Shown piece by piece: positions 2,729 to 40,660 of a stretch of 64,000 bases of DNA. The DNA comes from Mesorhizobium sp. M8A.F.Ca.ET.218.01.1.1 (GTDB lineage Bacteria > Pseudomonadota > Alphaproteobacteria > Rhizobiales > Rhizobiaceae): contig NZ_SRUZ01000004.1 in the NCBI RefSeq assembly GCF_004791165.1, positions 496,001-560,000 on the forward strand, written 5' to 3'. Each line of letters starts with the position of its first letter. The stretch's first letter is position 1. A model generated the notes under the pieces. The model was not told the origin of the DNA and searched no databases. It was given only the letters and a program-made list of their open reading frames with translations. Made by a program: the position numbers and the translations under genes.

Positions 2729-2755
2729 TCAGCCGCTCTTCAAGGAATCCTGTCC

Positions 2756-3733: not shown

Positions 3734-3961
3734 CGATAGTCTGCCTTGGTTTTCAGCGTCCCGCCGCAGCCGCGGGCTTGGTTTGCACGAAAAGTCGGCC
3801 AGCCACATGCTTGTGCGAGGCAGGCTGATCTTTGCCCTTGAGTTTCCGCTGAAATTCTTGAAGCTCTTTCAAGTCGGGTGCTGCTTTCGCACGAGAGCCG
3901 GCCGCGCATACGATGCTTGCGGGAACACAGAACATGTCCGGCAATCCGGATGGGAGGCACT

Positions 3962-6654: not shown

Positions 6655-7574
6655 TGGACATTACCGTCAACATCCTCTTGACCATTGCCACGGCGGCGAC
6701 GCCGCTCTTGATCGCGGCGATCGGCGAACTGGTGGTCGAACGTTCCGGCGTGCTCAATCTCGGCGTCGAAGGCATGATGATCATGGGTGCCGTCGGCGGC
6801 TTCGGGGCCGGCTACCTGACCGGCTCGCCCTGGATCGGCCTCCTGGCGGCAATCATCATGGGAGCAGTTTTCTCGCTGCTGTTCGCCGTCATGACGCTGT
6901 CGCTGGCCACCAACCAGGTGGCGACCGGATTGTCGCTGACGCTGCTCGGCCTCGGCCTCTCCGGCATGATCGGAACGCGCTTCGTCGGCCAGCCTGGCGT
7001 CCGGCTCCCCAACCTTGATATTCCCGGCCTCAGTTCGCTTCCGATCGTGGGCAGACTGCTGTTTGGCCAGGACCCTGTGTTCTATATTTCGATCGCGCTG
7101 ACGGCCGCGGTGATGTGGTTCCTGTTCAAGACGCGTACCGGGCTGACGCTGCGCTCGATCGGCGACAGCCATACATCGGCGCATGCGCTTGGCATCAAGG
7201 TCATCCGCTATCGCTACCTCGCGGTCATCTTCGGGGGCGCCTGCGCCGGTCTTGCCGGCGGGCATCTGTCGCTCGTCTATACGCCGCAGTGGGTCGAGAA
7301 CATGTCCGCTGGCCGCGGCTGGATCGCGCTCGCCCTGGTGGTGTTCGCATCCTGGCGGCCGTGGCGGGTGCTGGCCGGCGCCTACATCTTCGGCGCGGTG
7401 TGGATCGGCCAGCTTCATGCACAGGCTTTTGGCATTCCGGTGCCCTCGCAGATGCTTTCTTCTCTGCCCTATCTGGCAACCGTCGTGGTTCTCGTTCTAA
7501 TCTCGCGCGACAAGCGTCTGACGATGATGAACACGCCGGCATCCCTGGGGCAGCCATTCGTTCCGGATCGTTGA
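6654..7574 (+). CDS. ABC transporter permease 2 (BMP/nucleoside-type)
   Basis: 306 residues, shorter than permease 1, as is usual for the second subunit of this importer class. ERSGVLNLGVEGMMIMGAVG and LATNQVATGLSLTLLGLGLSG are the conserved segments, and the protein is hydrophobic throughout. The ATG at 6654 shares bases with the upstream TGA (TGATG), so translation is coupled. A 51-base spacer separates it from the binding-protein gene, which is the last gene of the unit. Confidence 0.92.
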   Translation: MDITVNILLTIATAATPLLIAAIGELVVERSGVLNLGVEGMMIMGAVGGFGAGYLTGSPWIGLLAAIIMGAVFSLLFAVMTLSLATNQVATGLSLTLLGLGLSGMIGTRFVGQPGVRLPNLDIPGLSSLPIVGRLLFGQDPVFYISIALTAAVMWFLFKTRTGLTLRSIGDSHTSAHALGIKVIRYRYLAVIFGGACAGLAGGHLSLVYTPQWVENMSAGRGWIALALVVFASWRPWRVLAGAYIFGAVWIGQLHAQAFGIPVPSQMLSSLPYLATVVVLVLISRDKRLTMMNTPASLGQPFVPDR

Positions 7575-7625
7575 CAACAAGAACAAGACGGGAAGCTCCA
7601 AGGCTTAACTCAGAGAGGTAACACA

Positions 7626-8693
7626 ATGAAAAAACTGCTTATTGCCCTGATGACCACGACTGCCGCAATGTCGCTGGCGGCGTCCGCGCAGGCCGCCGAC
7701 AAGTTGAAGGCGTGCTGGGTCTACACCGGCCCGATCGGCGATTTCGGCTATTCCTACCAGCACGACCAGGGCCGCCTCGAGGTCGAGAAGGCGCTCGGCG
7801 ACAAGGTCGAGACCGCCTATCTGGAGAACGTCTCCGAAGGCCCAGACGCCGACCGTGCTTTCGAGCGTCTGGCGCGCGAAGGCTGCAAGATCATCTTCGG
7901 CACCTCGTTCGGTTTCATGGACGCCGAAGTGAAGGTCGCCAAGAAGTTTCCCAAGGTGATGTTCGAGCACGCCACCGGCTACAAGACCGGGGATAATCTC
8001 GGCATCTACAATGCGCGCTTCTATGAAGGCCGCTACGTGCTCGGCCAGATCGCCGCCAAGGAATCGAAGTCCGGCGTCGCCGGTTACATCGTCTCCTTCC
8101 CGATCCCGGAAGTGGTGATGGGCATCAACTCCTTCATGCTCGGCGCGCAATCGATCAACCCGAACTTCAAGGCCAAGATCGTCTGGGTGAACTCGTGGTT
8201 CGATCCGGGCAAGGAAGCCGACGCCGCCAAGGCACTGTTCGACCAGGGCGCCGACATCATCGTCCAGCACACCGACTCGACCGCTGCCCTGCAGGTGGCC
8301 GAAGAGCGCAAGCTGCACGGCTTCGGCCAGTCGTCCGACATGATCAAGTTCGCGCCGAACGCGCAGTTGACGTCGCTGACCGACGAATGGGGCCCGTATT
8401 ATATCAGCCGCGTACAGGCAGCCATCGACGGCAGCTGGAAGCCGGACAATGTCTGGCTCGGCATCAAGGACGGCGCGGTCAAGCTCGCGCCCTACACCAA
8501 CATGCCCGACGACGTGAAGGCGATGGCCGAAGCGAGCGAAAAGAAGATCGCCGGCGGCTGGAACCCCTTCACCGGACCGATCGCCAAGCAGGATGGCTCG
8601 GCGTGGCTGAAGGATGGCGAGGTCGCCGACGACGGCACGCTGCTCGGCATGAATTTCTACGTCAAGGGCGTCGACGACAAGCTGCCGCAATAA
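7626..8693 (+). CDS. BMP-family ABC transporter substrate-binding protein
   Basis: 355 residues. The N-terminus MKKLLIALMTTTAAMSLAAS ending in AQA is a Sec signal peptide cleaved near residue 23, without a lipobox, so the protein is a soluble periplasmic one. The mature part (GPIGDFGYSYQHDQG, SEGPDADRAFERLAREGCKI) is typical of the Bmp/PnrA family, whose known ligands are purine nucleosides. GAGAGG at 7613-7618 precedes the ATG. It is the last gene of the ATPase-permease-permease-binding protein operon; a strong terminator stands 28 bases after the stop. The exact ligand is not readable from sequence. Confidence 0.93.
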   Translation: MKKLLIALMTTTAAMSLAASAQAADKLKACWVYTGPIGDFGYSYQHDQGRLEVEKALGDKVETAYLENVSEGPDADRAFERLAREGCKIIFGTSFGFMDAEVKVAKKFPKVMFEHATGYKTGDNLGIYNARFYEGRYVLGQIAAKESKSGVAGYIVSFPIPEVVMGINSFMLGAQSINPNFKAKIVWVNSWFDPGKEADAAKALFDQGADIIVQHTDSTAALQVAEERKLHGFGQSSDMIKFAPNAQLTSLTDEWGPYYISRVQAAIDGSWKPDNVWLGIKDGAVKLAPYTNMPDDVKAMAEASEKKIAGGWNPFTGPIAKQDGSAWLKDGEVADDGTLLGMNFYVKGVDDKLPQ

Positions 8694-15843: not shown

Positions 15844-16557
15844 ATGCCCGCAAGCGTTTTGAACACCCCGTCAGGTACAGTCCTCATCATCGGCGCGTCG
15901 CGCGGCCTCGGCCATGCAATGGCGGCCGAGTTCCTCGGGAAAGGCTGGAACGTCATCGGCACGGTCCGGGAAGGCGGCCGGACCAAGCTGCACGACCTCG
16001 CGGACGCGTTCGAAGGCCGGCTCGAAATCGAGACAGTCGACATCTGCGAACCCGATCAGGTCACGGCCTTGCGCGACCGGCTGTCGGGCAGGGTGTTGGA
16101 CATGGTGTTCGTCAATGCCGGCGTGAGCAACAACCCCGCTGAGACGATCGCCGATGTGACGACCGACGAGTTCGTGCGCGTGATGATCACAAATGCACTC
16201 AGCCCGATGCGTGTTCTCGAGAGCCTGGCGCCATTTGTTCCAGCTGCCGGCCTGATCGGCGTGATGTCGTCCGGGCAGGGGAGCATCTCCAACAACGAGA
16301 CAGGTCAACGTGAGGTCTACCGGGGCAGCAAGGCGGCGCTGAACATGTTCATGCGAAGCTTCGCCGCCCGCCATGCCGCAACATCGCGTGCCATGGTGCT
16401 GATGGCGCCCGGCTGGGTCCGTACGGAGCTGGGAGGGCCGGATGGAAGGCTGAGCATCGAGGAAAGCGTGCCGAGCCTCGTCAACGTTCTGCTTGCCAGG
16501 AAGGGAAGCCAGGGATTGCACTATGTCGACTATCTCGGACGCACCGTCCCCTGGTAA
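15844..16557 (+). CDS. SDR-family oxidoreductase
   Basis: 237 residues. GTVLIIGASRGLGHAMAAEF is the N-terminal TGxxxGxG-like NAD(P)-binding turn (here GASRGLG), with VNAG at about 90-95 and YRGSKAALNMF carrying the catalytic YxxxK. The serine appears in MSSGQGS. It is a classical short-chain dehydrogenase with an unknown substrate. The start at 15844 (MPASVLNTPSG) follows AAAGAG. The divergent partner is a LysR regulator gene that is frameshifted, so normal control of this gene may be lost. Confidence 0.88.
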   Translation: MPASVLNTPSGTVLIIGASRGLGHAMAAEFLGKGWNVIGTVREGGRTKLHDLADAFEGRLEIETVDICEPDQVTALRDRLSGRVLDMVFVNAGVSNNPAETIADVTTDEFVRVMITNALSPMRVLESLAPFVPAAGLIGVMSSGQGSISNNETGQREVYRGSKAALNMFMRSFAARHAATSRAMVLMAPGWVRTELGGPDGRLSIEESVPSLVNVLLARKGSQGLHYVDYLGRTVPW

Positions 16558-16656
16558 ATCCCATCGCGATGCCTGCGCGGCGACGAGCGCCAGCTTGTCC
16601 GCGGCCACACGAAATAAAGTGGTACCGCGACCGCTGGCGGCTTCTGCATCTGGCCC

Positions 16657-16890
16657 TTATTGAGCCGCCGTCATGGCGATGAGCTTTCGGACCTGGACGT
16701 ACTCTACGCAGTGAACAGGAAAATCCGGCCGGGTGGCCTTCGCGCAGTCTTTCGCGGTGGCGACAGGTTCATTCAGCGGAACGCTCGATGCCTGCGTGGA
16801 CGCTGATGAAAAAAGCAGCGTTTGGGTGGTCAATGCCGAGACGGCAGCGACTTGTATGAGAAGCGCGGCGAAGGCGATATTTTTGAGCAT
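16657..16890 (-). CDS. small secreted hypothetical protein
   Basis: About 77 residues from the ATG at 16890 (MLKNIAFAALLIQVAAVSAL). The N-terminus is a signal peptide or anchor. The mature part has two cysteines (ATAKDCAKATRPDFPVHCVE) that may pair. No family is recognised. It is isolated between the SDR gene and tRNA-Ser. Confidence 0.5.
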   Translation of the reverse strand: MLKNIAFAALLIQVAAVSALTTQTLLFSSASTQASSVPLNEPVATAKDCAKATRPDFPVHCVEYVQVRKLIAMTAAQ

Positions 16891-28991: not shown

Positions 28992-29264
28992 ATGATCACG
29001 GCTTCCCAGCTTCGCGCCGCTCGCGCCCTTCTCAACATCGACCAGAAAACCCTGGCGGAAATGGCAGGCGTCTCGCTGCCAACGATCCAACGAATGGAGG
29101 CCAGCCAAGGCAATGTGCGAGGCGTTGTCGACAGTTTGATGAAAGTGATCAACGCGCTGAACCGCGCCGGCGTTGAACTTCTCAGCGAACATATGCGCAG
29201 CGACGATGGAGGTCGTGGCGTGAGGTTCCGGCATCCGGACACGCTATTGGGCAAGCCGAACTAG
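28992..29264 (+). CDS. small XRE-family HTH regulator 1
   Basis: 90 residues. MITASQLRAARALLNIDQKT, LAEMAGVSLPTIQRMEASQG forms a Cro/CI-type helix-turn-helix. A short C-terminal part (VDSLMKVINALNRAGVELLS) and a glycine-containing tail follow (DDGGRGVRFRHPD). Two paralogues with the same architecture lie at 31238 and 39710. It precedes the YoaK-type gene by about 140 bases in the same direction. Confidence 0.85.
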   Translation: MITASQLRAARALLNIDQKTLAEMAGVSLPTIQRMEASQGNVRGVVDSLMKVINALNRAGVELLSEHMRSDDGGRGVRFRHPDTLLGKPN

Positions 29265-29401
29265 ACCATACAAAGTGGACCTCCGGCGCCCGCGCAATCA
29301 CCGTCTTTCGTCTCCTTTTCCTTCCAGAAACACCCAATGAGCCTCTCCCTGCACGTCAACTTGTGGTTCCGCTTTTCCACACGGAAAGGCAGGGTTCGCC
29401 C

Positions 29402-30160
29402 ATGATCCTCTATCTGCGTCGGCTTGCCGGGAAGGAACGGAGCGACAGGACCGATCGACATCTCGCCCGTTTCCTGACCTTTGTCGCGGGGGCGGCCAAT
29501 GCTGGAGGATTTCTGGCGGTCCAGCAGTATACGTCCCATATGTCAGGCATCGTTTCGTTGATGGCTGATCACTTGGCACTCGGCAACGTCGAGCTCGCGC
29601 TTTCCGGATTCGGAGCCTTGCTGTCGTTTGTCTCTGGCGCGGCCTGTTCAGCGATGCTGATCAATTGGGGGCGACGGCAGCATCTGCAGAGCGAATATGC
29701 GTTTCCGCTTGTCCTGGAAGCGATCTTGCTGATCTGTTTCGGCCTTCTCGGCGGCCATCTCGCGCGTCATGAAGCGCTTTTTGTACCAATGACGGTGATG
29801 CTGCTTTGCTTCATCATGGGGTTGCAGAACGCCATCATTACAAAGCTATCGGAAGCCAGAATCCGGACGACGCATATCACTGGCCTGGTGACGGACATGG
29901 GCATCGAACTCGGCAAGCTGCTTTATTGGAACATCTCAAGAAGTGACTCGGACGAGCTGTTCGTGAAGGCAGATCGAAGAAAGCTGAGACTGCTTGCATC
30001 GCTTGTCGCATTGTTCTTTGTCGGCGGTGTCATCGGCGCTGTGGGTTTCAAGCACATTGGCTTTGCAGCGACGCTGTTTCTCGCAGCCATTCTCCTCGTG
30101 CTGGCCTCCATGCCAGTCCTGGAAGATATCTCCGTTCGCATGAAGCAACTCTGGCAGTAG
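29402..30160 (+). CDS. YoaK/DUF1275 family membrane protein
   Basis: 252 residues with about six hydrophobic segments. FLTFVAGAANAGGFLAVQQY, TSHMSGIVSLMADHLALGN and LCFIMGLQNAIITKLSEARI, then RTTHITGLVTDMGIELGK, are the DUF1275 landmarks. Function unknown; some members are linked to stress. The ATG at 29402 is the first sensible start. No terminator was seen after it, and it converges with the spermidine-synthase-like gene. Confidence 0.88.
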   Translation: MILYLRRLAGKERSDRTDRHLARFLTFVAGAANAGGFLAVQQYTSHMSGIVSLMADHLALGNVELALSGFGALLSFVSGAACSAMLINWGRRQHLQSEYAFPLVLEAILLICFGLLGGHLARHEALFVPMTVMLLCFIMGLQNAIITKLSEARIRTTHITGLVTDMGIELGKLLYWNISRSDSDELFVKADRRKLRLLASLVALFFVGGVIGAVGFKHIGFAATLFLAAILLVLASMPVLEDISVRMKQLWQ

Positions 30161-30218: not shown

Positions 30219-30944
30219 CTAGCGCCAAGGCCTGAACACCAATTGGCTGAGGTCATTTGCGATCTCGTCGGCTCCGACCGCCGGCGGTATCAACAATATT
30301 GGCTGGACGAGGTCCCGCACCTTACCCGCCATGACGAGCGCGTTGCGATCCGGAATACCGCGCGTGTCGAGCAGTCTCACGTTCTCCCAGATATTACTGA
30401 GTTTGGCAGCAACACGATCCGGCATGATGTCAAGGTCGTGTCGAGCATGAACGTTCCCGATCAGAATACCGGACGAGCTGAGACGCGTCTGCGCCAAGCC
30501 GAAGAATGTCTCGGCACACAAGTGGTCTGGAATGCGCCTCCCGGAATATGCGTCCAGAACAATCGCATCGTAGCGATGACGGCCGGCGCGCAGAAAATCC
30601 CGCCCGTCGGAGATGCAACAGCGAACTCCACGGGGTAGCCCAAAATATTTCTGGGCGATCTGGAAAGCCTTCGGGTTGATGTCGACGATCGTGACACGCA
30701 CGCCAACCCTATCCAGCATCGTCCCCAGGCTGCCGCCGCCACAACCGATCATCAAGACATCGGACGCCTGCGCTTGCGCGAGGAGGCCAAAGATCGCGTG
30801 GATGTAGGGCACGACGCTGACGCCATTCGGATCGCACTCACTTTGATAGCAGCCACCTTGGCGATAAATGAACGAACCGGAGTCCTTGGCCCGCAGAACC
30901 TCGATGTTGCCGAAATCGGTATGATATTTCGCAACCCGGATCAT
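30219..30944 (-). CDS. spermidine synthase-like SAM-binding protein
   Basis: 241 residues. VLMIGCGGGSLGTMLDRVGV is the nucleotide-binding loop, VTIVDINPKAFQIAQKYFGL the acidic-loop strand and YDAIVLDAYSGRRIPDHLCA the polyamine-synthase-like active-site region. The N-terminus keeps a shortened version of the strand domain (FGNIEVLRAKDSGSFIYRQG). It may be a spermidine synthase homologue or a small methyltransferase. Alone on the minus strand inside the island, it is divergent from the Hyf operon promoter. The 290 bases upstream hold no gene, only regulatory sequence. Confidence 0.75.
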   Translation of the reverse strand: MIRVAKYHTDFGNIEVLRAKDSGSFIYRQGGCYQSECDPNGVSVVPYIHAIFGLLAQAQASDVLMIGCGGGSLGTMLDRVGVRVTIVDINPKAFQIAQKYFGLPRGVRCCISDGRDFLRAGRHRYDAIVLDAYSGRRIPDHLCAETFFGLAQTRLSSSGILIGNVHARHDLDIMPDRVAAKLSNIWENVRLLDTRGIPDRNALVMAGKVRDLVQPILLIPPAVGADEIANDLSQLVFRPWR

Positions 30945-31139: not shown

Positions 31140-31187
31140 GATGCGTCACGCATCATTATTTGAATGCGCCGCATTTTAATATATGCT
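31140..31187 (+). promoter_or_regulatory. candidate promoter/operator of the XRE-hyf operon
   Basis: A dyad GATGCG-TCA-CGCATC (31140-31154) lies directly upstream of TTGAAT (31160-31165), a 16-base spacer and TATGCT (31182-31187). The stretch is notably AT-rich compared with its surroundings. Part of the dyad (GCATCATT) resembles the operator candidate of the first XRE gene (GCATCAAT). Likely control by the coupled XRE regulator is inference. Confidence 0.4.
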
Positions 31188-31237
31188 GCAGCGCTTAGAG
31201 ATAATACGTCAAAGCTGATCGAAAAGGGGATGCGACC

Positions 31238-31552
31238 GTGATAACTGCTCCACAGTTGCGTGCCGCGAGGGCGCTCCTTGGCATCGACCAGCGCAGGCTT
31301 GCCGAATTATCAGGCCTTTCGGTGCCGACAATTCAACGTATGGAAGCCAGTGAGTCGATTATCCGAGGCAACGTCGATTCCCTCATGAAGCTGATTGGGG
31401 CTCTTGACCTTGCCGGCGTGGAATTGATTGCTGAAGGCGCCTCCAGCCAAATCGGTGGGCGCGGCGTGCGACTGAAAGCAGATTTTGATCCCGCCAAAAT
31501 TCTGGGCGGGATCGATACGGACGCCAAACTCCCCGTGAGGAGCGTGGCGTGA
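31238..31552 (+). CDS. small XRE-family HTH regulator 2, first gene of the hyf operon
   Basis: 104 residues from a GTG with AAAGGGGA eight to fifteen bases upstream. MITAPQLRAARALLGIDQRR, LAELSGLSVPTIQRMEASES is the helix-turn-helix, and the tail has the family piece IGGRGVRLKADFD. It is the longest of the three paralogues. The stop overlaps the hyfB GTG start (GTGA), so the regulator is translated together with the membrane complex. This suggests it controls its own operon. Confidence 0.85.
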   Translation: MITAPQLRAARALLGIDQRRLAELSGLSVPTIQRMEASESIIRGNVDSLMKLIGALDLAGVELIAEGASSQIGGRGVRLKADFDPAKILGGIDTDAKLPVRSVA

Positions 31553-33570
31553 TTTCGAGCGCCGCGGTCCTCCTGTGGGGCGTTGCTGCGCTCTTGGGGA
31601 CCGCGGTGCTTGCGGTTTCGGAAAGCCGTAGATCTGGCTCGGGAACACGCCTGATCTACGGCTTGACGCTAGGCATATCGGCGGCCGTGCTCCTGGTTCT
31701 CGCGAGCCGCATCGCCAATGATCCCGTCACCCCGTCGACTGCCGCGCTGCCTCTTGGGTTGCCATGGATTGGCGCTCATTTCCGCTTGGATGCGCTCTCG
31801 ACTTTCTTCCTTGCCGTCGTCAATTTCGGCGGCGCCATGGCCAGTCTTTACGGCCTCGGCTACGGCAGGCACGAGTCCGCGCCGCATCGCGTGCTGCCGT
31901 TCTTCCCGGCCTTCCTTGCCGCAATGAACCTTGTCGTGATGGCAGACGACGCCTTCACCTTTCTGCTGTCCTGGGAATTCATGTCGCTCGCCTCCTGGGC
32001 GCTCGTCATGGCGCACCATCGCGAACAGGACAATGCGCGGGCGGGCTACATCTATCTCGTGATGGCGAGTTTCGGAACGCTCGCACTGCTGCTTGCGTTC
32101 GGTCTCCTGTCAGGCCCTGGCGGGAACTACACGTTCGAAGCGATGCGTGCCGCCTCCCCCACCCCGCTCGCCACCGCTTTCGTCCTGGCTCTTATGCTGC
32201 TGGGCGCAGGCTCCAAGGCTGGCCTCGTACCGCTGCATGTTTGGCTGCCACTCGCTCACCCGGCCGCGCCGAGCCACGTCTCGGCTCTGATGAGCGGCGT
32301 CATGACCAAGGTCGCCGTCTATGGCTTCATACGCGTTATTTTCGACCTCCTCGGCGAGCCGGCATGGTGGTCAGGCGTTGTTGTGCTTTTCCTCGGCGGC
32401 CTGACGGCGGTTCTCGGCATCCTCTACGCGCTGATGGAAAAGGACCTGAAGCGGCTGCTTGCCTATAGCACCATTGAAAATGTCGGCGTCATCTTCGTGA
32501 GCCTTGGCCTTGCGCTAGCATTCAGGGCGAATGCCATGCCATCGGCCGCGGCGCTGGCGCTCACCGCCGCGCTGTTCCACGTCCTCAATCATTCCTTCTT
32601 CAAGAGCCTGCTGTTTTTTGGCGCGGGCGCCGTGCTGACGGCAACCGGTGAGCGTGACATGGAGAAGCTGGGCGGCCTCATCCATCGCATGCCCCTTACA
32701 AGTTTTGCCTTTCTCGTCGGCTGCGTCGCGATCTCGGCTCTTCCACCCTTCAACGGGTTCGTCTCCGAATGGCTAGCCTTCCAGGCCATATTGCAGAGCC
32801 CCGACCTGCCAGAATGGGGACTGAAGGTCATGGTGCCCGCCGTCGGTGGTCTGCTGGCACTCTCGGCGGCGCTGGCCGCGGCCTGCTTCGTGAAGGCGTT
32901 CGGGATCACATTCCTCGGCAGGCCGCGCTCGGCCGCGGTGGAACCGGCGCACGAGGTCGACCGCTACTCGCTGACTGCAATGTTCAGCCTCGCGGCCCTG
33001 TGTCTGCTTGCCGGCATCGTTCCAGGTCTTGTAATAGACGGCCTATCATCGGTGACTCTCCCGCTGATTGGCAGCCGGATGCCCGTGCAAATGGCGCAGC
33101 CCTGGCTGTCGATCGTGCCGATTGCGACAAGCCGCAGTTCCTACAACGGCCTGCTGGTGTTTCTGTTCATCGCGTTTTCAGCAGCCGCAGCAGCATATGC
33201 CATCCACCGTTTCGCGTCGCATGCAATCCGTCGGGGTCCTGCCTGGGGTTGTGGCTTCGCGGATGTGACCCCAAGCTCGCAATACACGGCCGTCAGCTTC
33301 GCACAGCCTATCCGCCGCGTCTTCGGCACGTTCGCTTTCCGTGCGAGGGAAACCGTCGAAATGCCGCCCCCCGGCCAAACCGGTCCGGCTCGCCTGGATG
33401 TCGAAATGCATGATGTGATCTGGGAGACGCTGTATCTGCCCATCGGCAAGGCCCTCGACTTTGCGACCGACCACCTGAACCATCTCCAGTTCCTGACGAT
33501 CAGGCGCTACCTGACCCTCGTCTTTCTCTTTCTCGTTGTCTTGCTCCTGGTGCTCGCACTATGGCCCTGA
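31549..33570 (+). CDS. hyfB: Hyf/complex I-like proton-translocating subunit HyfB (NuoL/MrpA family)
   Basis: 673 residues, about 16 membrane segments. DAFTFLLSWEFMSLASWALV carries the conserved Glu of antiporter-like subunits. SKAGLVPLHVWLPLAHPAAP and HVSALMSGVMTKVAVYGFIR hold the conserved Lys and channel His/Pro pattern. EKDLKRLLAYSTIENVGVIF and LNHSFFKSLLFFGAGAVL match HyfB/HycC. The start is a GTG overlapping the regulator stop. Together with HyfF it would form the ion-pumping arm. Confidence 0.92.
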   Translation: MISSAAVLLWGVAALLGTAVLAVSESRRSGSGTRLIYGLTLGISAAVLLVLASRIANDPVTPSTAALPLGLPWIGAHFRLDALSTFFLAVVNFGGAMASLYGLGYGRHESAPHRVLPFFPAFLAAMNLVVMADDAFTFLLSWEFMSLASWALVMAHHREQDNARAGYIYLVMASFGTLALLLAFGLLSGPGGNYTFEAMRAASPTPLATAFVLALMLLGAGSKAGLVPLHVWLPLAHPAAPSHVSALMSGVMTKVAVYGFIRVIFDLLGEPAWWSGVVVLFLGGLTAVLGILYALMEKDLKRLLAYSTIENVGVIFVSLGLALAFRANAMPSAAALALTAALFHVLNHSFFKSLLFFGAGAVLTATGERDMEKLGGLIHRMPLTSFAFLVGCVAISALPPFNGFVSEWLAFQAILQSPDLPEWGLKVMVPAVGGLLALSAALAAACFVKAFGITFLGRPRSAAVEPAHEVDRYSLTAMFSLAALCLLAGIVPGLVIDGLSSVTLPLIGSRMPVQMAQPWLSIVPIATSRSSYNGLLVFLFIAFSAAAAAYAIHRFASHAIRRGPAWGCGFADVTPSSQYTAVSFAQPIRRVFGTFAFRARETVEMPPPGQTGPARLDVEMHDVIWETLYLPIGKALDFATDHLNHLQFLTIRRYLTLVFLFLVVLLLVLALWP

Positions 33571-34517
33571 TCCTTGAGTTGGCCGTTCAGGGCGCACAGA
33601 TGATCCTGGTGCTTTTACTGGCGCCACTCCTGACTGGCTTCGTGCGCAAGGTGAAGGCGAGACTTCTGCGGCGCCAGGGTCCCTCTCTCGTCCAGCCCTA
33701 TCGCGACCTCCTACGGCTCATGCGCAAGGAGGTCGTCCTGGCGGATAACGCCTCCTGGCTGTTTCGCGTGACGCCCTATCTGATCTTCGCCACGACCTGG
33801 GTCGCGGCTGCGCTCATCCCGACATTCGCTACCGGGCTCACCTTCAGTTGGACTGCGGATCTCATAGCCATCGTTGCACTGCTTGGGAGCGCTCGGTTCT
33901 TCCTGGCGCTGGCGGGGATGGACGTCGGCACCAGCTTTGGCGGCATAGGTTCGAGCCGCGAGGTCATGATCGCTTCCCTGGCCGAGCCCGCAATGCTTCT
34001 GATCGTGTTCAGCCTGGCGCTTGTTGCCGGAGCGACGCAGCTGTCCACGGTCGCCGCCTTCATGGGCTCGCCGCAAGTTGGGCTGCGGGTATCGCTCGGG
34101 ATGTCCCTCATCGCCCTGGTGATGGTGGCGGTCGCCGAAAACGCCCGCATACCAGTGGACAACCCATCGACCCATCTGGAACTCACCATGGTTCACGAGG
34201 CGATGGTGCTGGAATATTCAGGTCGCCATCTGGCGATGATCGAGTTCGCGGCCTTCCTCAAGCTCCTGCTCTATATGTCGCTGATTTGCTGCGTCTTCCT
34301 ACCTTGGGGACAGGCGACCGCCGAGGCAGGACCGGAATCCCTTGCTCCAGGTGTCGTTGCCTATATCGGCAAGCTTGCCGTCTGCGGCATTCTGCTCGCC
34401 GTGTTTGAGACTGCCATCGCCAAGATGCGCGTCTTCCGCGTCCCGGATTTTTTGGGCGCCGCACTCATGCTGGCGCTGCTCGGCACGCTCCTGCTGTTCG
34501 TCTCGCGGAGTCTGTGA
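33561..34517 (+). CDS. hyfC: HyfC/NuoH-like membrane anchor subunit
   Basis: 318 residues with eight hydrophobic segments. VKARLLRRQGPSLVQPYRDL (quinone/peripheral-arm loop) and ENARIPVDNPSTHLELTMVH then EAMVLEYSGRHLAMIEFAAF are diagnostic of HycD/HyfC/NuoH. This subunit connects the soluble arm to the antiporter-like subunits. The start overlaps hyfB by ten bases. Confidence 0.92.
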   Translation: MALILELAVQGAQMILVLLLAPLLTGFVRKVKARLLRRQGPSLVQPYRDLLRLMRKEVVLADNASWLFRVTPYLIFATTWVAAALIPTFATGLTFSWTADLIAIVALLGSARFFLALAGMDVGTSFGGIGSSREVMIASLAEPAMLLIVFSLALVAGATQLSTVAAFMGSPQVGLRVSLGMSLIALVMVAVAENARIPVDNPSTHLELTMVHEAMVLEYSGRHLAMIEFAAFLKLLLYMSLICCVFLPWGQATAEAGPESLAPGVVAYIGKLAVCGILLAVFETAIAKMRVFRVPDFLGAALMLALLGTLLLFVSRSL

Positions 34518-35179
34518 TGAACGGTCTCACCTTCGACATCGCTCATTTGCTCGCCGGCGGCCTGGTGCTGGTCAGCTTCATGATGCTCTATCAGGATCGC
34601 CTTTTCGCGCTGATCAACGTCTTTGCGCTGCATGCCGTCGTGCTTGCGCTGTCGGTAGCCTGGCAGGCATACATTCAGGACGCCCATCATCTCTACGTCA
34701 CCGCGGCGATCGCTCTCGTTTTCAAGGCGATCGTCATTCCCGTCGGGCTTCATCGCATCATCCAGCGGCTCGGTATCCATCGCGACATCGAGACAGCCGT
34801 CGGGATCGGTCCGACGATGCTTGGGGGAATAGGCCTGGTGGCCCTGTCCATGGTGTTGATGCTGCGCGTCACGCCCGAAGCTGACCCCCTCGCCCGCGAG
34901 GACCTGGCCTTCGCGCTGTCCATCATACTGCTGGGCCTTCTGGTGATGGTCACCCGCCGGAATGCCGTGAGCCAGGTTGTCGGATTCATGTCGCTCGAGA
35001 ACGGTCTGGTCCTTGCCGCCACGGGGGCAAAGGGCATGCCGCTGGTCGTCGAGATAAGTGTCGCCTTCTCGATCCTAATCGCCTTCATCGTCATCGGGGT
35101 TTTCCTGTTCCGTATACGCGAGCGGTTCGACTCGGTGGATGTCGGCGCGCTCGACGATTACAGGGGAGAACACCGTTGA
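34517..35179 (+). CDS. hyfE: HyfE-type subunit (NuoK-related)
   Basis: 220 residues, hydrophobic. VTRRNAVSQVVGFMSLENGL is the HyfE/NuoK-like segment with the conserved Glu, and VAFSILIAFIVIGVFLFRIR follows. It is longer than NuoK, as HyfE is. The ATG at 34517 shares a base with the hyfC stop (TGATG); a GTG at 34514 is also possible. It was scored as HyfE from the gene order between hyfC and hyfF. Confidence 0.88.
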   Translation: MNGLTFDIAHLLAGGLVLVSFMMLYQDRLFALINVFALHAVVLALSVAWQAYIQDAHHLYVTAAIALVFKAIVIPVGLHRIIQRLGIHRDIETAVGIGPTMLGGIGLVALSMVLMLRVTPEADPLAREDLAFALSIILLGLLVMVTRRNAVSQVVGFMSLENGLVLAATGAKGMPLVVEISVAFSILIAFIVIGVFLFRIRERFDSVDVGALDDYRGEHR

Positions 35180-36627
35180 CCGCGTTATCCCTCGATGCGG
35201 TGGCTGCCGTTTTGCTGATACCAGCCAGCGCGGCCGCACTTCTGGCGTCGCTGCCGAACTACCGGATATCGGCGGGCCTCAATGTCGGCGCGAGCTTGCT
35301 GACCTTGCTCGCCGCGGTGTCGCTCTTCGTCACGGATCGGCCGCTGCCGGGCCAATACCTGCTCGTCGACGATCTCAATATCGTCTTCATCGTGCTCAAC
35401 GCATTCGTCGGTTTCACGACGAGTGTCTTCAGCGCCTCCTACATTGCGCACGAGCTCGAGACAGGGCGGCTGACCGTACCAAACTTGCGATTTTATCACG
35501 CTATGTACCAGATCATGATGTTCGGCATGAACCTGGCGTTCGTGTCGAACAATATCGGCCTGATGTGGGTGGCGGTGGAGCTTGCTACACTGACCACCGT
35601 GCTCATGGTCGGGATCTACCGCACGCACGAAGCGCTGGAAGCCGCCTGGAAATATTTCATTCTGGGAAGCGTCGGCATCGCGCTTGCGCTCTTCGGTACC
35701 ATCCTCGTCTATATGGCCGCCCAGCCGGTTGTCGGCGAGGGCACGAATGCCATGGTCTGGACGGTGCTCATCGAGCATGCGGCGCGCTTCGACCCGGCCT
35801 TGCTGAATGTCGCCTTCGTTTTCCTGCTGCTCGGCTACGGTACGAAGGTTGGCCTTGCGCCCTTGCATGCCTGGCTGCCGGATGCGCACGCGGAAGGCCC
35901 GACGCCGATTTCCGCGGTGCTGTCAGGCCTGCTGTTGAACGTCGCGCTCTATGCAGTGCTGCGCTTCAAGCTGCTGCTTGCGGCTAGCCCCGAAGCGATC
36001 GCGCCTGGGCCATTGATGATCACGATGGGGCTGACGTCGCTTGTTTTCGCGGCCTTCATGCTCTACCGCCGTCGCGACATCAAACGTCTGTTCGCGTACT
36101 CTTCGATCGAGCACATGGGCATCATCGTGTTCGCTTTCGGCATGGGTGGCCCGCTCGCCAATTTTGCCGGTCTGCTGCACATGGTCATGCACAGCCTGAC
36201 CAAGTCGGCGATCTTTTTTACGGTAGGCCACATTGCCCAGGTCAAGGGAACACAGAATATAGCCGAGATCCGGGGGCTGACGGAGACGCATCCGGGGCTC
36301 GGCTGGGCGCTCGTCATCGGGGTCGTTGCCATTGCCGGCCTCCCTCCGCTCGGCATCTTCATGAGCGAATTCCTGGTAGTGAGCTCGACATTCGCCAGAC
36401 ACCCTCTCTTGGCGATGCCGTTGGTGTTCGGGATTCTGCTCGCTTTTGGAGCCCTGCTGCTCCGACTGACCGGTGTCGCTTTCGGCGAACCGCGCGGCAG
36501 CACCGCACCCGCCGAGGCGTCCTATATACCGATGTATTCCCACTTGGCGCTGGTATTTGCCGCCGGCATCTATCTGCCGCCATCGCTGGTCACATGGTTC
36601 CAGCATGTCGCAAGTATCCTGGGATGA
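35176..36627 (+). CDS. hyfF: HyfF proton-translocating subunit (NuoM/N-like)
   Basis: 483 residues, about 14 membrane segments. ATLTTVLMVGIYRTHEALEA with AAWKYFILGSVGIALALFGT, GYGTKVGLAPLHAWLPDAHA and RRDIKRLFAYSSIEHMGIIV are antiporter-like landmarks with the conserved Lys and Glu. The start is a TTG at 35176 with GGGGAGAA upstream, overlapping the hyfE stop (TTGA). Second antiporter-like subunit of the complex. Confidence 0.92.
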   Translation: MTALSLDAVAAVLLIPASAAALLASLPNYRISAGLNVGASLLTLLAAVSLFVTDRPLPGQYLLVDDLNIVFIVLNAFVGFTTSVFSASYIAHELETGRLTVPNLRFYHAMYQIMMFGMNLAFVSNNIGLMWVAVELATLTTVLMVGIYRTHEALEAAWKYFILGSVGIALALFGTILVYMAAQPVVGEGTNAMVWTVLIEHAARFDPALLNVAFVFLLLGYGTKVGLAPLHAWLPDAHAEGPTPISAVLSGLLLNVALYAVLRFKLLLAASPEAIAPGPLMITMGLTSLVFAAFMLYRRRDIKRLFAYSSIEHMGIIVFAFGMGGPLANFAGLLHMVMHSLTKSAIFFTVGHIAQVKGTQNIAEIRGLTETHPGLGWALVIGVVAIAGLPPLGIFMSEFLVVSSTFARHPLLAMPLVFGILLAFGALLLRLTGVAFGEPRGSTAPAEASYIPMYSHLALVFAAGIYLPPSLVTWFQHVASILG

Positions 36628-38156
36628 GAAAAAAAACCGTGCCCGAGCTGATCGATCTCATACTTGATGGCCGACGTGTAAAAAAGCATCTCCCCTGGCC
36701 ACGCGCCGTGGTGCCCCCCCAAATATGGAACTTTGCTGTTGAAAAGCTGGTCGTGAGTCACTGGAGCTTGCTCGGTCTTTGGGGTGAGCCAAGCGTCGTC
36801 CACATGGCGCTTCTTGACGAAACGGCCGGGAACATCGGCGTTATCAGCCTGAAATGCCCGGACGGCCGCTACCCATCGGTCGGTCGGCTGCATCCGCCGG
36901 CATTGCGTCTCGAACGTGCGGCCGCTGACCTTTTCGGCCTCTTGCCACAAGGCGCGCCTGATACGCGACCGTGGCTTGATCATGGCCACTGGGGTGTCAG
37001 CTATCCATTGAATACCCACGTCCGGACGTCTGCTGCAACGGTGTCCCCGTACCCTTTCCTGTCAGCCGAGGGGGAAAGCCTGCATCAGATCCCGGTCGGG
37101 CCCGTGCATGCCGGCATCATCGAGCCAGGGCATTTTCGATTTACAGCGAGCGGCGAAACGGTCGTCCGGCTGGAGGAGCGCCTCGGATACACGCACAAGG
37201 GCATAGAAGGCTTGATGGCGGGGTCCGATATCGACCGTGCAGCCAAACTGGCGGGCAGGACCTCTGGCGACAGCACCGTGGCGTATTCACTGGCTTTTGC
37301 CCGCGCGGTCGAAACGGCGCTGGGTGTCGAGATTCCCTCACGAGCAATCTGGTTGAGAGCGCTCATGGCCGAGTTGGAGCGCCTGGCCAACCATCTGGGC
37401 GACATCGGAGCCATTTGCAATGACGCCGCCTTCGCCCTGATGCATGCCCACTGCGGAGTGCTGCGTGAGCGTGTGTTGCGGGCAAGCGATATAGCCTTCG
37501 GCCATCGTTTGATGCGCGACCGCATCGTGCCGGGAGGGGTGGCAAGCTTCCTCAGCGATGAGGGGGCGACAGCGGTCAGGTCTCTGATCGCAGAGATCAG
37601 GCGGCGGTTTCCCGCACTGGTCGAACTCTACGACAACACGGCGTCGCTCCAGGATCGGACAGTCGCAACTGGCCGGCTGAAGGTGGAGCTTGCTCGCCAA
37701 TATCGTGCTGGAGGGTATGTCGGGCGGGCCTCCGGCCGGGACTTCGATGCCCGCCGCAATGTCGCCTATCCACCCTATGACAAGCTCGCCTTCGATGTGC
37801 CTGTCCTCCAGGAGGGCGATGTGAACGCCCGTGTCTGGATTCGTATCCACGAGGTTGAACAGAGCCTATCCCTGGTCGAGCAAATCCTGGCACAACTGCC
37901 AGATGGGCCGATCCGTGTCGACTTCGCGCAGACAGGCGGGCCGCATGAAGGCATGGCGCTTGTCGAAGGTTTCCGGGGCGACATTCTGGCCTGGCTGCGC
38001 ATCGGCAAGGGCGGCTTGGTGGAGCGCTGTCACCTGCGTGATCCGTCGTGGTTTCAATGGCCGCTTCTTGAGGCTGCGATCGAGGGAAACATCGTCGCCG
38101 ACTTCCCGCTGTGCAACAAATCGTTCAACTGCTCCTATTCCGGCCACGATCTCTGA
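36624..38156 (+). CDS. hyfG: HyfG-like NuoC/NuoD fusion large subunit lacking Ni-binding cysteines
   Basis: 510 residues. The NuoC-like part is about 1-150 (LHPPALRLERAAADLFGLLP) and the NuoD-like part about 160-510 (GPVHAGIIEPGHFRF, ERLGYTHKGIEGLMAG). Where [NiFe] hydrogenases have RxCGxC it reads RTSGDS (212-217). Where they have DPCxxC it reads DFPLCNKSFNCSYSGHDL (493-510), close to NuoD. All four nickel ligands are therefore missing. The protein cannot hold a NiFe site and belongs to the Ehr (hydrogenase-related) class. It overlaps hyfF by ATGA. Confidence 0.9.
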   Translation: MRKKTVPELIDLILDGRRVKKHLPWPRAVVPPQIWNFAVEKLVVSHWSLLGLWGEPSVVHMALLDETAGNIGVISLKCPDGRYPSVGRLHPPALRLERAAADLFGLLPQGAPDTRPWLDHGHWGVSYPLNTHVRTSAATVSPYPFLSAEGESLHQIPVGPVHAGIIEPGHFRFTASGETVVRLEERLGYTHKGIEGLMAGSDIDRAAKLAGRTSGDSTVAYSLAFARAVETALGVEIPSRAIWLRALMAELERLANHLGDIGAICNDAAFALMHAHCGVLRERVLRASDIAFGHRLMRDRIVPGGVASFLSDEGATAVRSLIAEIRRRFPALVELYDNTASLQDRTVATGRLKVELARQYRAGGYVGRASGRDFDARRNVAYPPYDKLAFDVPVLQEGDVNARVWIRIHEVEQSLSLVEQILAQLPDGPIRVDFAQTGGPHEGMALVEGFRGDILAWLRIGKGGLVERCHLRDPSWFQWPLLEAAIEGNIVADFPLCNKSFNCSYSGHDL

Positions 38157-38168
38157 AGGCACGTCGTC

Positions 38169-38708
38169 ATGCGCAAGCTTCTCTTCGAAAGCCTGATACG
38201 CCCCCCTCTCACCGAGCGTCCACCGGTGGCACGCGACTCGGCAGTCGAGGAATTGGCGCGTGCCCTCAACGGGTCCGCTCGCAAAAGGCTGGGGAGAAGC
38301 CTGGCCATTCGGGCTGTCGACGCCGGTTCCTGCAACGGTTGCGAACTCGAGATGCATGCGCTCAACAACGCTTTCTACGACATCGAGCGTTTTGGGATCC
38401 GGTTCGTCGCATCGCCGCGCCATGCCGATGTGCTGCTCGTCACGGGTCCGGTCACAAAAAACATGCGCGAGGCATTGAAGCGGACATACGACGCAACTCC
38501 TAATCCCAAATGGGTGGTCGCGCTCGGAGATTGCGCGAAGAACGGCGGCTGTTTCGCCGGCGGCTATGCCGTGATGCGCGGAGTGTCGGAGGCGCTGCCC
38601 GTCGACCTGCATATTCCAGGCTGCCCACCGCCGCCCATCGAAATTCTGAAAGGCCTGCTCGCCTTGCTTGAGGGAGTGAGTTCAAAGGCTGGCGTTGCTC
38701 GAAGTTGA
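38169..38708 (+). CDS. hyfI: HyfI/NuoB-like iron-sulfur small subunit
   Basis: 179 residues. Cysteines at 55 and 58 (DAGSCNGCELE), 122 (GDCAKNGG, with another at 128) and 152 (IPGCPPPPIEILKGL) match the N2-type [4Fe-4S] cluster of NuoB/HycG. It pairs with the HyfG-like subunit at the quinone or electron-acceptor site. It follows hyfG by 12 bases. No HyfA/HyfH-type ferredoxin subunit is encoded nearby, so the electron-input side of this complex is incomplete in this operon. Confidence 0.92.
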   Translation: MRKLLFESLIRPPLTERPPVARDSAVEELARALNGSARKRLGRSLAIRAVDAGSCNGCELEMHALNNAFYDIERFGIRFVASPRHADVLLVTGPVTKNMREALKRTYDATPNPKWVVALGDCAKNGGCFAGGYAVMRGVSEALPVDLHIPGCPPPPIEILKGLLALLEGVSSKAGVARS

Positions 38709-38896
38709 CTATCGATGTGGAGGGCTCTTCCGCCACAAGGGGAGCAAAAGCCTCCAGGCCTAAAATGGCATCCCGACTAACCAGGTTTCGATGTGAAAAC
38801 GGAGCCTTGAACGATCGCAGCGTGAAGCAGAAGCAGGGCAAACTGGTCGACGGGCTGCTGCAGATTGCAAGGGAGCAGGCCGAGATCAGGAAGTGA
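38705..38896 (+). CDS. possible small protein coupled to hyfI
   Basis: 63 residues starting at a TTG that overlaps the hyfI stop (TTGA), the same coupling style used elsewhere in this operon. The sequence is polar and basic (KQKQGKLVDGLLQIAREQAE) with one cysteine and no membrane segment. No family is recognised. The coupling argues for it, while the low-complexity first half argues against. It could be an operon-tail remnant. Confidence 0.3.
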   Translation: MTIDVEGSSATRGAKASRPKMASRLTRFRCENGALNDRSVKQKQGKLVDGLLQIAREQAEIRK

Positions 38897-39101
38897 TGAG
38901 CGCGCTGGACTGCATCAGCCAAGCGGGCAGGAACCATCACCCGACGGGCAGCTAGCTTCCGGTGTTCCTCACGGAACCGATGCCCTCCGCCGTGAACAGT
39001 CGGCGAGATAGCCGCGGCAGGCTTGAGTGCAACGCTCAGGCGTCCTAGTGGGCCTTACGAGTTGGCCGATCATCTGAAATGACAGTCCGCAAGCGCGCAT
39101 G

Positions 39102-39179
39102 GTCAGACAGTGTCCATCTGATGGCGCAGCAGCCCCGCAACCTAACGCTGGACCCGTGCAGCATCATGTCAGACAGTGT
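39102..39179 (+). repeat. two copies of GTCAGACAGTGT in a gene-free stretch
   Basis: GTCAGACAGTGT occurs at 39102-39113 and 39168-39179, 66 bases apart. The second is part of the nine-base palindrome TGTCAGACA. Both lie upstream of the DUF983 gene and may be operator sites or remnants of a mobile-element end. The surrounding 38897-39228 region shows no convincing gene, and its right part is strongly AT-rich. Confidence 0.45.
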
Positions 39180-39228
39180 ATATCTAGGTGTTGAACCATT
39201 GAGTGTCATGTATTATACATTATCATTG

Positions 39229-39615
39229 ATGGACAAAGGAAGCGACATATTTGCACGGCCGACTCTGCCAGTCGCCCTTTCACGAGGCTTGGTGGGCCGA
39301 TGCCCTAACTGTGGTCAGGGGAAATTGTATCGCACCTACCTGAAGCAGGTGGAGCGTTGCGCAGTTTGTGGAGAACACTTTGGTGACATAGAATCTGACG
39401 ATGCGGCGCCTTGGTTCACTATCCTCATTGCGGGCGTATTTGCAGCCCCCTTGTATTTCTTGTTCCAAGGGCTTCTTCTGTCATACTTCGCCGTCACAAT
39501 GGTATTGATCTCTCTTATTATTGTAGCGCTGATACTGCTTTTGTTACCCCGCATAAAAGGCGCTTTGATCAGCGCGTTCTGGTTTTCGCGGCTTAAAAAC
39601 GACGAGCCGGGATGA
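39229..39615 (+). CDS. DUF983 family membrane protein
   Basis: 128 residues from the ATG at 39229 (MDKGSDIFARPTLPVALSRG); ATG at 39208 is an alternative. GRCPNCGQGKLYRTYLK and VERCAVCGEHFGDIESDDAA form the paired CxxC knuckle of DUF983. Two membrane helices follow (WFTILIAGVFAAPLYFLFQG and MVLISLIIVALILLLLP). Homologues often sit near cytochrome oxidase assembly genes. Here it is isolated, and its AT-rich codon use differs from the neighbours, a sign of separate acquisition. Confidence 0.85.
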   Translation: MDKGSDIFARPTLPVALSRGLVGRCPNCGQGKLYRTYLKQVERCAVCGEHFGDIESDDAAPWFTILIAGVFAAPLYFLFQGLLLSYFAVTMVLISLIIVALILLLLPRIKGALISAFWFSRLKNDEPG

Positions 39616-39709: not shown

Positions 39710-39982
39710 GTGATTAGCGCTTCGCAGATTCGCGCAGCCCGGGCATTGCTTGGAATCGACCAGAAACGCCTAGCTGAGCGTGCCGGCATTTCCCTGTCAG
39801 CCATCCAACGAATGGAGGCCGGCGAGAGCGATCTACCCGGCGCGTTTGACATGCAGAAGAACGTCGTAATCGCCCTCAGAGCAGCAGGGATCGAGCTGAT
39901 TGGCGATCATGAGCGCAGTGGCGGCGGAGGCCGAGGCGTGCGCCTGGCGCATCCTGTCGGTCTGGCAGGCCGGACGCATTGA
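39710..39982 (+). CDS. small XRE-family HTH regulator 3
   Basis: 90 residues from a GTG at 39710. MISASQIRAARALLGIDQKR, LAERAGISLSAIQRMEAGES is the helix-turn-helix, and the tail GGGGRGVRLAHP matches the other two paralogues. The protein appears complete. It is followed by the stump of an EPTG-type gene, whereas the first XRE gene has an intact EPTG gene divergent to it. XRE and EPTG genes therefore seem to form a module. Confidence 0.82.
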   Translation: MISASQIRAARALLGIDQKRLAERAGISLSAIQRMEAGESDLPGAFDMQKNVVIALRAAGIELIGDHERSGGGGRGVRLAHPVGLAGRTH

Positions 39983-40187: not shown

Positions 40188-40660
40188 CCGACCTCCTGAC
40201 CCTCGTCCGCTCCAGGCAGTGAAGCCCACTAATGCCGCTCACCTCCTGAGGTCTTCGGCCTCGCAGCGGATTTTCGAACACGCCGCCGATACCGGCGCGT
40301 CGATCGAGACAATACATCCGTTTTGCGGACCGCCCGCACCAACATATCACTGTAGATGACGCGGCGGTGCCGCGCGATGCTCTCCATGTGTGTTCCTATA
40401 TCCGGATCGGATCAGCGCAGCTTCGAGCAGGATGCGATGGATCTGGATGCGCTCGATGGAATCCGGCATACAAAGCAACCACCCTGCTCCAATCCACTCA
40501 TCATGCGTCGGCGGGACTGAAGGCGATCAGAAATGACCACTCGATCTTCCTTTCTAGGCTTGCCCGATCGCCTCGCCGATGGCACGGCGCCCCGCGCGGT
40601 AATCTTCGGAGCTGGTCACGGCAGCACCTATCCCGGCAAAGACAGCAGCGGTCATGCCTT
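40125..40660. repeat. direct repeat B, right boundary of the accessory island
   Basis: This is the second copy of 28085-28607, in the same orientation. The two share the Imm11-like start, the long intergenic part and the agmatinase start. B has a few extra bases (for example around 40238-40258 and 40384-40392). Here the agmatinase gene continues intact and the Imm11 gene is cut. The 39983-40532 stretch contains no other gene. Confidence 0.93.

Follow-up and report, generated by a model that had tools for sequence, protein, structure and literature searches.

An Ehr-type hyf operon with a nickel-free large subunit and a coupled XRE regulator in Mesorhizobium

The operon described here lies in a 64,000-nucleotide stretch of DNA (hereafter, the window) from the 7.13 Mb genome of Mesorhizobium sp. 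M8A.F.Ca.ET.218.01.1.1 (RefSeq assembly GCF_004791165.1, contig NZ_SRUZ01000004.1, positions 496,001 to 560,000 of the forward strand), and it consists of a gene for an XRE-family regulator followed by hyfB, hyfC, hyfE, hyfF, hyfG, and hyfI. While these six genes are annotated as hydrogenase 4, the large subunit HyfG has lost the nickel ligands, and its complex is, as assigned by its features, a non-hydrogenase complex of the Ehr kind. With a probability of about 0.42, we propose that it would be an Ehr-type proton-translocating membrane oxidoreductase stemming from the formate-hydrogenlyase side, in which a soluble carrier would dock at HyfI and a small acceptor would be reduced in the old NiFe cavity.

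The Ehr class was reportedly defined by Marreiros et al. in 2013. Its members combine a group-4-like large subunit without the CxxC ligands, a small subunit, and membrane subunits of the Mrp/Nuo type; the window operon shows the same combination, which holds across its relatives, and a first-pass annotation made from the letters of the window had also matched the operon to this class. Several bacterial groups have been reported to possess Ehr complexes, whose function is open in the literature examined; it is described there as unknown or as no more than proposed (PMC10284858, PMC6349859).

Loss of the nickel site

In an alignment with HycE and HyfG of E. coli, the HyfG protein of the window has RTSGDS in place of RVCGIC and NCSYSG in place of DPCYSC, and it ends with GHDL, without the C-terminal tail that is present in the E. 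coli proteins. The former nickel-ligand positions are occupied by S224, S227, S514, and G517 (520-aa numbering), and this replacement is shared by the family. Among 83 relatives (from which L001 and L002, representing the own genome, and L082, the same record as L003, were excluded), the first position is Ser in 82 and Cys in one, the second is Ser in 82 and Ala in one, and the third and fourth are Ser and Gly in all; at most one Cys is found at these positions in any relative. A second sampling of 53 relatives with HyfG in reach (from 58 loci, five of which coincide with places in the first sampling) gave Ser in 53, 51, and 51 and Gly in 53, the remainder being Ala or Thr and none being Cys. 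Also, in the first motif, the residue just before the second ligand position has been replaced by Asp in every relative of both samplings (83/83 and 53/53), and the hydrogenase-type Glu177 is kept in 83 of 83; it corresponds to E21 of MbhL, to which PMC7684303 assigns a key role in proton reduction.

The first-pass annotation had located the loss of ligands in RTSGDS and DFPLCNKSFNC; the loss itself is confirmed, but the two Cys residues in the latter motif, C507 and C513, are not at ligand positions. A new metal site composed of C507, C513, and H518 was considered and rejected as a general feature, because these residues vary among the relatives: C507 and C513 are replaced by Ile and Leu in Cupriavidus, Variovorax (second copy), and Burkholderia pyrrocinia, the same positions hold Leu or Gly in some alphaproteobacterial relatives, and H518 is replaced by Gln or Val in 14 of the 83.

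HypD (PF01924) was furthermore absent from the genome of the window, while the same search was positive in four of 14 control genomes including that of E. coli. Having neither the nickel ligands in HyfG nor HypD in the genome, the complex is excluded from hydrogen chemistry, as had been claimed from the window alone; the concern that resequencing might restore the ligand Cys residues is met by a loss that is family-wide. When 99 genomes of the genus were surveyed, 42 were found to carry HyfG of this family (defined by a match above 600 bits) and 17 to carry HypD; at E 0.001, 97 of the 99 have some HyfG match, those below 600 bits being mostly complex I. HypD was found in 8 of the 42 carriers and 9 of the 57 non-carriers (Fisher p 0.79; kinship between genomes is left uncorrected in all Fisher tests given here), and it is absent in 34 of the 42 carriers.

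Relationship to formate hydrogenlyase

A tree was built from 36 large-subunit rows (IQ-TREE, LG+C20+F+G4), with support given as bootstrap/Shimodaira-Hasegawa-like approximate likelihood ratio test (SH-aLRT). The HyfG family of the window comprises 22 rows (98/99), to which a betaproteobacterial sister of three rows is joined at 88/86. Together with three rows of a fused type described below (L090, L091, and L088, in two branches; G042 is outside the row set), they make up one clade (100/99), and this nickel-free clade adjoins formate hydrogenlyase (97/93), while the three complex I rows form a clade of their own, apart from the others (100/100). The tree program flags long branches, including that between formate hydrogenlyase and the nickel-free clade, so that the split from complex I is more secure than the exact sister relation to formate hydrogenlyase. 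A phylogeny of HyfG against complex I, group 4 hydrogenases, and Ehr had been suggested in the first-pass annotation; it places HyfG outside complex I and beside formate hydrogenlyase, among rows that hold no published Ehr sequence (Geobacter, Nitrospira, Margulisbacteria), and the Ehr name rests on features.

The fold of HyfG predicted with a mean pLDDT (predicted local distance difference test) of 73.4 is nearest to that of E. coli HycE (7z0s_E; Z 36.3, root-mean-square deviation 2.9, 443 aligned), with NuoCD of E. coli complex I tied (Z 36.0). In terms of sequence, E. coli formate hydrogenlyase (7z0s) is the best PDB match of both HyfG (207 bits) and HyfI (130 bits).

Retained cluster ligands and missing electron-entry subunit

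The Cys residues for the proximal cluster in HyfI are arranged in the hydrogenase-type CxxC form, and all four are present in 78 of 79 relatives, rows far shorter or longer than the window protein being excluded from this count. The further sampling, in which the own genome and five repeats are included, gave all four in 58 of 59 loci, with L162 being the exception. Earlier counts of HyfI had been disturbed by matches running past a stop in L006 and L071, the latter of which retains its Cys residues.

Charged residues in the membrane subunits of this superfamily are established to carry protons. Those of the window operon hardly vary: E143, K223, K254, H344, H348, and E407 of HyfB are present in 75 of 75 relatives, E135, K224, H339, and E398 of HyfF in 79 of 79, and E162 and E180 of HyfE in 78 of 78; in HyfC, E134, E142, and E193 are present in 78 of 78 relatives, and E207, E213, and E218 in 77 of 78.

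A gene like HyfA, HyfH, or NuoI was not found among the operon genes of the window, and no match to a protein of these kinds was obtained inside the operon in 84 loci, where two weak matches were in the flanks (L030 and L076); the lack of a HyfA/HyfH or NuoI-type Fe-S protein that had been noted for the window thus extends to its relatives. In neighboring types, namely, those of B. cenocepacia, Variovorax (in an additional, tandem cluster), one Mesorhizobium genome (G042), and Mycobacterium branderi, a ferredoxin domain is fused in front of the NuoB-like subunit. These hyc-type fused clusters (L090 of M. branderi, L091 of B. cenocepacia, the first copy in L088 of Variovorax, and G042/L102) have the same kinds of subunits and likewise no nickel ligands, but their NuoB-like subunit is joined to a ferredoxin domain, which is not present in HyfI of the window. 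The ferredoxin domain of M. branderi is degenerate, with much of the ferredoxin motif gone. The rv0082-rv0087 operon of M. tuberculosis, the subject of a published study (PMC6901956), may also be of this fused hyc type.

Three loci deserve separate mention. An open HyfI frame in a Mesorhizobium metagenome bin (L076, 11539-12057) has its four cluster Cys residues replaced by Ser, Ser, Glu, and Asn, with an ordinary HyfG alongside. On a plasmid of M. branderi, the fused ferredoxin-NuoB subunit of the hyc-type cluster (L090, 12309-13103) is without the proximal-cluster Cys residues. Plasmid 3 of Variovorax (L088, 1-13105) encodes a pair of distinct nickel-free complexes at a short distance, of which just one has the fused ferredoxin domain.

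Proposed function and its alternatives

In the mechanism that we propose, a ferredoxin or flavodoxin, acting as a small and soluble carrier of single electrons, would dock directly on HyfI at the place of HyfH, and electrons would pass the single proximal cluster of HyfI into the former NiFe cavity, which would now be lined by Ser224, Asp226, Ser227, and Ser514 with Glu177 retained. This cavity would then be the site where a small organic molecule, a quinone being the likeliest candidate, is reduced and protonated, and the energy would drive protons through the membrane arm.

Several observations weigh against this proposal. When HyfG was aligned to Aquifex NuoD (7q5y), the equivalents of Nqo4 H38 and Y87 were not conserved; since these are the residues for the quinone head group, the quinone is a guess by analogy. 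The loops of the HyfG model that would form the cavity have pLDDT below 50, and the shape of the pocket is unreliable, and a donor gene linked to the operon was not found. Also, the distant relative in M. branderi has lost the proximal-cluster Cys residues, HyfI of L162 has Ala at the fourth Cys position next to a two-residue gap, and L076 is the sole case without any of the four Cys residues among the HyfI sequences read; some members of the family (L076, L162, and, distantly, M. branderi) may hence be free of electron transfer. At the level of the order, HypD was found in 5 of 12 carriers versus 33 of 138 others, and the three most divergent carriers are among these five, with SGDS and NCSYSG still in their HyfG. 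Furthermore, neither form of the palindrome described below is present in 10 of 73 loci.

The first-pass annotation had left the choice between a donor encoded elsewhere and an ion pump or transporter module; no linked donor has come to light, and the latter possibility is weakened where it dispenses with redox chemistry. The complex might indeed be a transporter of ions or solutes, with the soluble arm being structural or regulatory and the antiporter-like subunits swapping H+ for another cation, and this would agree with HyfI being devoid of the cluster Cys residues in L076 and the distant M. branderi relative and with no NuoI-type subunit being found in the operon; we nonetheless consider it unlikely, as the four Cys residues of HyfI are kept almost everywhere (78/79 and 58/59) and the carboxylates of HyfC are kept as well. 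The bicarbonate dependence that had also been suggested is not supported in its DAB-type form, because DabA (PF10070) was absent from the genome of the window in a search that was positive in 2 of 14 control genomes. A slightly less probable reading is a substrate reductase like MBS, with a non-quinone acceptor, such as a disulfide, a polysulfide, or a product linked to a neighboring S-adenosylmethionine (SAM)-binding enzyme, receiving the electrons either at the proximal cluster or within the cavity. That the scaffold accepts other acceptors is illustrated by MBS, the sulfane sulfur reductase of Pyrococcus (6u8y, PMC7684303), which has likewise departed from hydrogen chemistry. The gene for a spermidine-synthase-like SAM-binding enzyme, whose orientation differs between loci, is found in the fetched stretch of 24 of 92 family loci; in the genus, 9 of 42 carriers have it versus 1 of 57 non-carriers. 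MBS retains, however, two of the four ligand Cys residues and has a three-Cys proximal cluster, whereas the complex of the window has no ligands and four cluster Cys residues, and the fetched stretch is devoid of a SAM gene of this kind in 68 of the 92 loci. Quite doubtful, in our estimation, is the idea of a branch of the complex I superfamily that would have shed its cofactors stepwise, the nickel site and then both electron-entry clusters, to become a pump with one cluster or, in rare members such as L076, with none, its membrane arm being driven otherwise, perhaps by the product of the SAM enzyme.

Complexes of the complex I superfamily are reversible, and the complex might run backward, with the proton-motive force and quinol driving electrons up to a carrier of low potential that could serve, for instance, nitrogenase. 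Many carriers are rhizobia and nifH is present in the genome of the window; nifH above the cut-off is, nonetheless, not clearly enriched (31 of 42 carriers versus 33 of 57 non-carriers, Fisher p 0.14), and members of the family are likewise known from Cupriavidus, Variovorax, and Burkholderia. We regard this reversal as improbable, and a link to nitrogen fixation, as judged from the same counts, was rejected. Far below these readings is the notion of a hydrogenase operon in decay, for which its patchy occurrence in the genus (42/99 genomes) might speak. In the window, the selection test refutes it, with omega being 0.03-0.16 in the seven genes against five Mesorhizobium relatives; the frames are also intact, the motifs are near-invariant, and the palindrome is conserved. 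Decay had been named in the first-pass annotation as well, and the genes are instead under purifying selection. The least probable reading, which we give practically no weight, is the hydrogenase or formate hydrogenlyase implied by the NCBIfam and RefSeq names; it is refuted by the sequence, in which the nickel-ligand set is missing across both samplings, and HypD, HyfH, and the tail are missing likewise.

Comparison with known systems

The proposed oxidoreductase can be compared with several known systems. E. coli formate hydrogenlyase (Hyc and Hyf; 7z0s, PMC9474812) has a CxxC-type proximal cluster in its small subunit, as in HyfI, and represents the nearest clade outside the nickel-free ones; it differs in having the nickel ligands, HyfH/HycF, HyfA/HycB, formate dehydrogenase, and the C-terminal tail, none of which was found in the window operon. 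Complex I has subunits like NuoB, CD, H, K, and L/M/N and the fold of HyfG in common with the window operon, in which the NADH module and NuoI are not present; the small subunit of complex I has adjacent Cys residues in contrast to CxxC in HyfI, its H38 and Y87 are not conserved in HyfG, and its rows form a separate clade. As for published Ehr, a figure legend in PMC8691401 lists NuoL-like, HyfE-like, and large and small Ehr subunits for GSU0739-0745 of Geobacter, and Ehr of Margulisbacteria/Saganbacteria is proposed, in a passage of PMC6349859, to work with formate dehydrogenase and NuoE/F-like genes, neither of which was seen in the window's operon.

The six-gene set itself is not new. In 2010, hyfBCEFGI was described in Cupriavidus metallidurans CH34 (Rmet_4666-4671) and C. 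necator H16 (H16_A2196-A2201) and was judged (PMC2864759) to be an incomplete operon whose involvement in lithotrophic growth is very unlikely. The set of CH34 has the same six genes, the same replacement of ligands, and the SAM-enzyme and DUF1275 neighbors, and it belongs to the sister branch (88/86); unlike in the window, XRE was not matched in the CH34 stretch, and C507 and C513 are Ile and Leu there. A functional study of the six-gene set was not found in the literature looked at, which was open-licence and in which six of the Cupriavidus locus tags led only to PMC2864759; the word hyf does not appear in the main text of a paper on C. necator fitness data (PMC11540253). The low-oxygen (lxa) locus of B. 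cenocepacia was considered as a parallel and dropped, with "hydrogenase" and "NADH" not appearing in the main text of PMC9104464 and PMC6127331. While Ehr as a class and the six-gene set in Cupriavidus are thus already known, the XRE coupling, the palindrome, and the SAM-enzyme neighbor appear to be new here, in that no prior report was met in the open-licence literature, where these features were not searched by name.

Of the 397 genomes that were sampled from the order, 53 have a match to HyfI at E 1e-40 or better, and the laboratory strain Rhizobium johnstonii 3841 carries the operon on pRL11. The operon represents a compact six-gene form of Ehr in genetically tractable rhizobia, whose carriers in the genus are mostly unable to make a NiFe site (34/42), and it offers a predicted regulator and operator as a switch together with two candidate partner genes. 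Natural contrasts are provided by the neighboring branches that retain the ferredoxin domain and by the variant without the cluster Cys residues. The annotation of the six-gene set as "hydrogenase 4" in rhizobial records is misleading.

Operon layout and selection

The regulator gene and the six hyf genes are arranged in series on the plus strand as one unit (31238-38708; Table 1). These seven gene calls agree with the first-pass annotation, which had, however, extended the operon to 38896 and held that all of its genes overlap; five junctions overlap by 4 to 10 nt, while hyfG and hyfI are 12 nt apart. In the gene list of the window, no further operon gene is seen past 38708. HyfG probably starts at 36624 with an ATGA overlap with hyfF, and codon 3 of its longer frame is occupied in just 26 of 83 aligned relatives.

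Table 1. Features of the operon and of its upstream neighborhood (positions are those of the window)
Feature	Position	Strand	Remarks
DUF1275 (YoaK-type) membrane protein	29363..30160	+	PF06912
Spermidine-synthase-like SAM-binding enzyme	30219..30944	-	NF037959, 52.6 bits (cut-off 40); divergent from operon
Putative operator GATGCGTCACGCATC	31140..31154	.	perfect 7+1+7 palindrome, form GATRN7YATC
Putative promoter TTGAAT, 16 nt, TATGCT	31160..31187	+	-35 box begins 5 nt behind palindrome
XRE-family (HTH_3) regulator, 104 aa	31238..31552	+	PF01381; 4 nt overlap with hyfB
HyfB, NuoL-like antiporter subunit, 673 aa	31549..33570	+	NF005086, 887 bits, above cut-off
HyfC, NuoH-like membrane anchor, 318 aa	33561..34517	+	PF00146
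HyfE, NuoK-like small membrane subunit, 221 aa	34514..35179	+	NF008556, 85 bits, below cut-off of 136
HyfF, NuoM/N-like antiporter subunit, 483 aa	35176..36627	+	NF005043, 909 bits, above cut-off
HyfG, NuoC-NuoD-like large subunit, 510 aa (probable start)	36624..38156	+	PF00346, PF00329, PF00374; longest frame from 36594
HyfI, NuoB-like small subunit, 179 aa	38169..38708	+	PF01058; cluster Cys C55, C58, C122, C152

All of the reading frames are intact, and the omega values given above, being low in all seven genes, indicate that the operon is under selection as a whole. Among the 83 relatives, of which several loci are cut at contig ends, hyfF, hyfG, and hyfI were matched in 83 each, hyfE in 80, hyfC in 79, and hyfB in 77, and the nearest relatives of HyfG are from Mesorhizobium with 88% identity. 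The operon is real, intact, and more than chance, and its motifs hardly vary among the relatives.

A coupled regulator and a palindrome

The coupling of the operon to an XRE regulator, as perceived in the window, holds across the relatives with some exceptions: 72 of 83 have the XRE gene 5' of hyfB and co-directional with it, and the two genes share 4 or 7 nt in 61 of the 72, while 11 of 83 are without a same-direction XRE and XRE was not matched in three betaproteobacterial loci. Within 160 bp before the XRE gene, furthermore, a palindrome of the form GATRN7YATC is found in 49 of 73 loci, the window included, compared with a mean of 1.6 in 200 Markov resamples (maximum 7) and 1.6 in 20 draws of random stretches from the same loci (maximum 4). 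Among the remaining 24 loci, a putative palindrome of a related type, TTGATTTNANACATCA, is seen in 14 (Rhizobium and kin). Given the constant pairing of the gene with the palindrome, the XRE protein is inferred to bind the palindrome and control its own operon.

In 41 of the 49 loci, the palindrome is followed at a distance of exactly 5 nt by a -35-type box, TTG[AC][CTA], whereas the chance expectation for such a box anywhere in 16 nt is about 4 loci and at most 10; a fuller -35/-10 pair with a spacing of 16-18 nt was scored in 30 of the 49. This placement of the palindrome before the -35 box suggests activation. A generic promoter scanner picks another site (31176-31205), and promoter-like sites are no more frequent than in shuffles. 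Oxygen control by FNR/FixK was also considered: TTGN8CAA occurs before XRE in 9 of 73 loci versus 5.1 in shuffles (6 versus 1.3 in a stricter form), which is too weak generally, and the spacing of the frequent palindrome differs from that of an FNR/FixK box.

The window contains two further genes for small XRE proteins akin to the hyf regulator (28992-29264 and 39710-39982), and a weaker palindrome of the same form, GATGTTTTATGCATC, is located at 28927, 65 nt before the former. Also, XRE-like frames outside but near the operon were seen in 25 loci.

Neighboring genes

That the operon is a regulated unit, as the first-pass annotation had it, agrees with the above, but "self-contained" is too strong a term, as the spermidine-synthase-like and DUF1275 genes recur alongside. 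The former is upstream and divergent in Mesorhizobium and downstream and co-directional in Bradyrhizobium, and it also adjoins the operons of Cupriavidus and Variovorax and, by annotation, is near that of Burkholderia pyrrocinia. Its difference in frequency between carriers and non-carriers in the genus gives p 0.0017 with weak matches dropped; namely, 21 of 99 genomes have a match at E 0.001, of which 10 with E < 1e-30 were counted and 11 were dropped. In all of the nine carriers, the gene is within about 10 kb of hyfG, and the match in the lone non-carrier is split over two frames. The DUF1275 gene is found within the fetched stretch in 12 of 92 family loci, including two betaproteobacterial ones at 62 and 68% identity, and a DUF4365-type gene is located closely 3' of hyfI in 12 loci on the Rhizobium side (the family being shown for one). 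Because most loci are without each of these neighbors in the stretch seen, none is an obligatory linked subunit.

A polyamine pathway was considered from an agmatinase-like gene at 40533 and rejected, since relatives of this gene were found in 0 of 92 family loci. A DUF983 gene downstream of the operon (39079-39615) has relatives in 3 of 92 family loci (L005, L009, and L103). With regard to the C1 compounds suggested in the first-pass annotation, there is a single case, a plasmid of Methylovirgula (L004), in which fae (formaldehyde-activating enzyme) is beside the operon, which is located there between an F-type ATP synthase operon and fae (1756-8318 and 16290-16808); the ATP synthase genes are in the order of beta, epsilon, AtpI-like, a, c, delta, alpha, and gamma.

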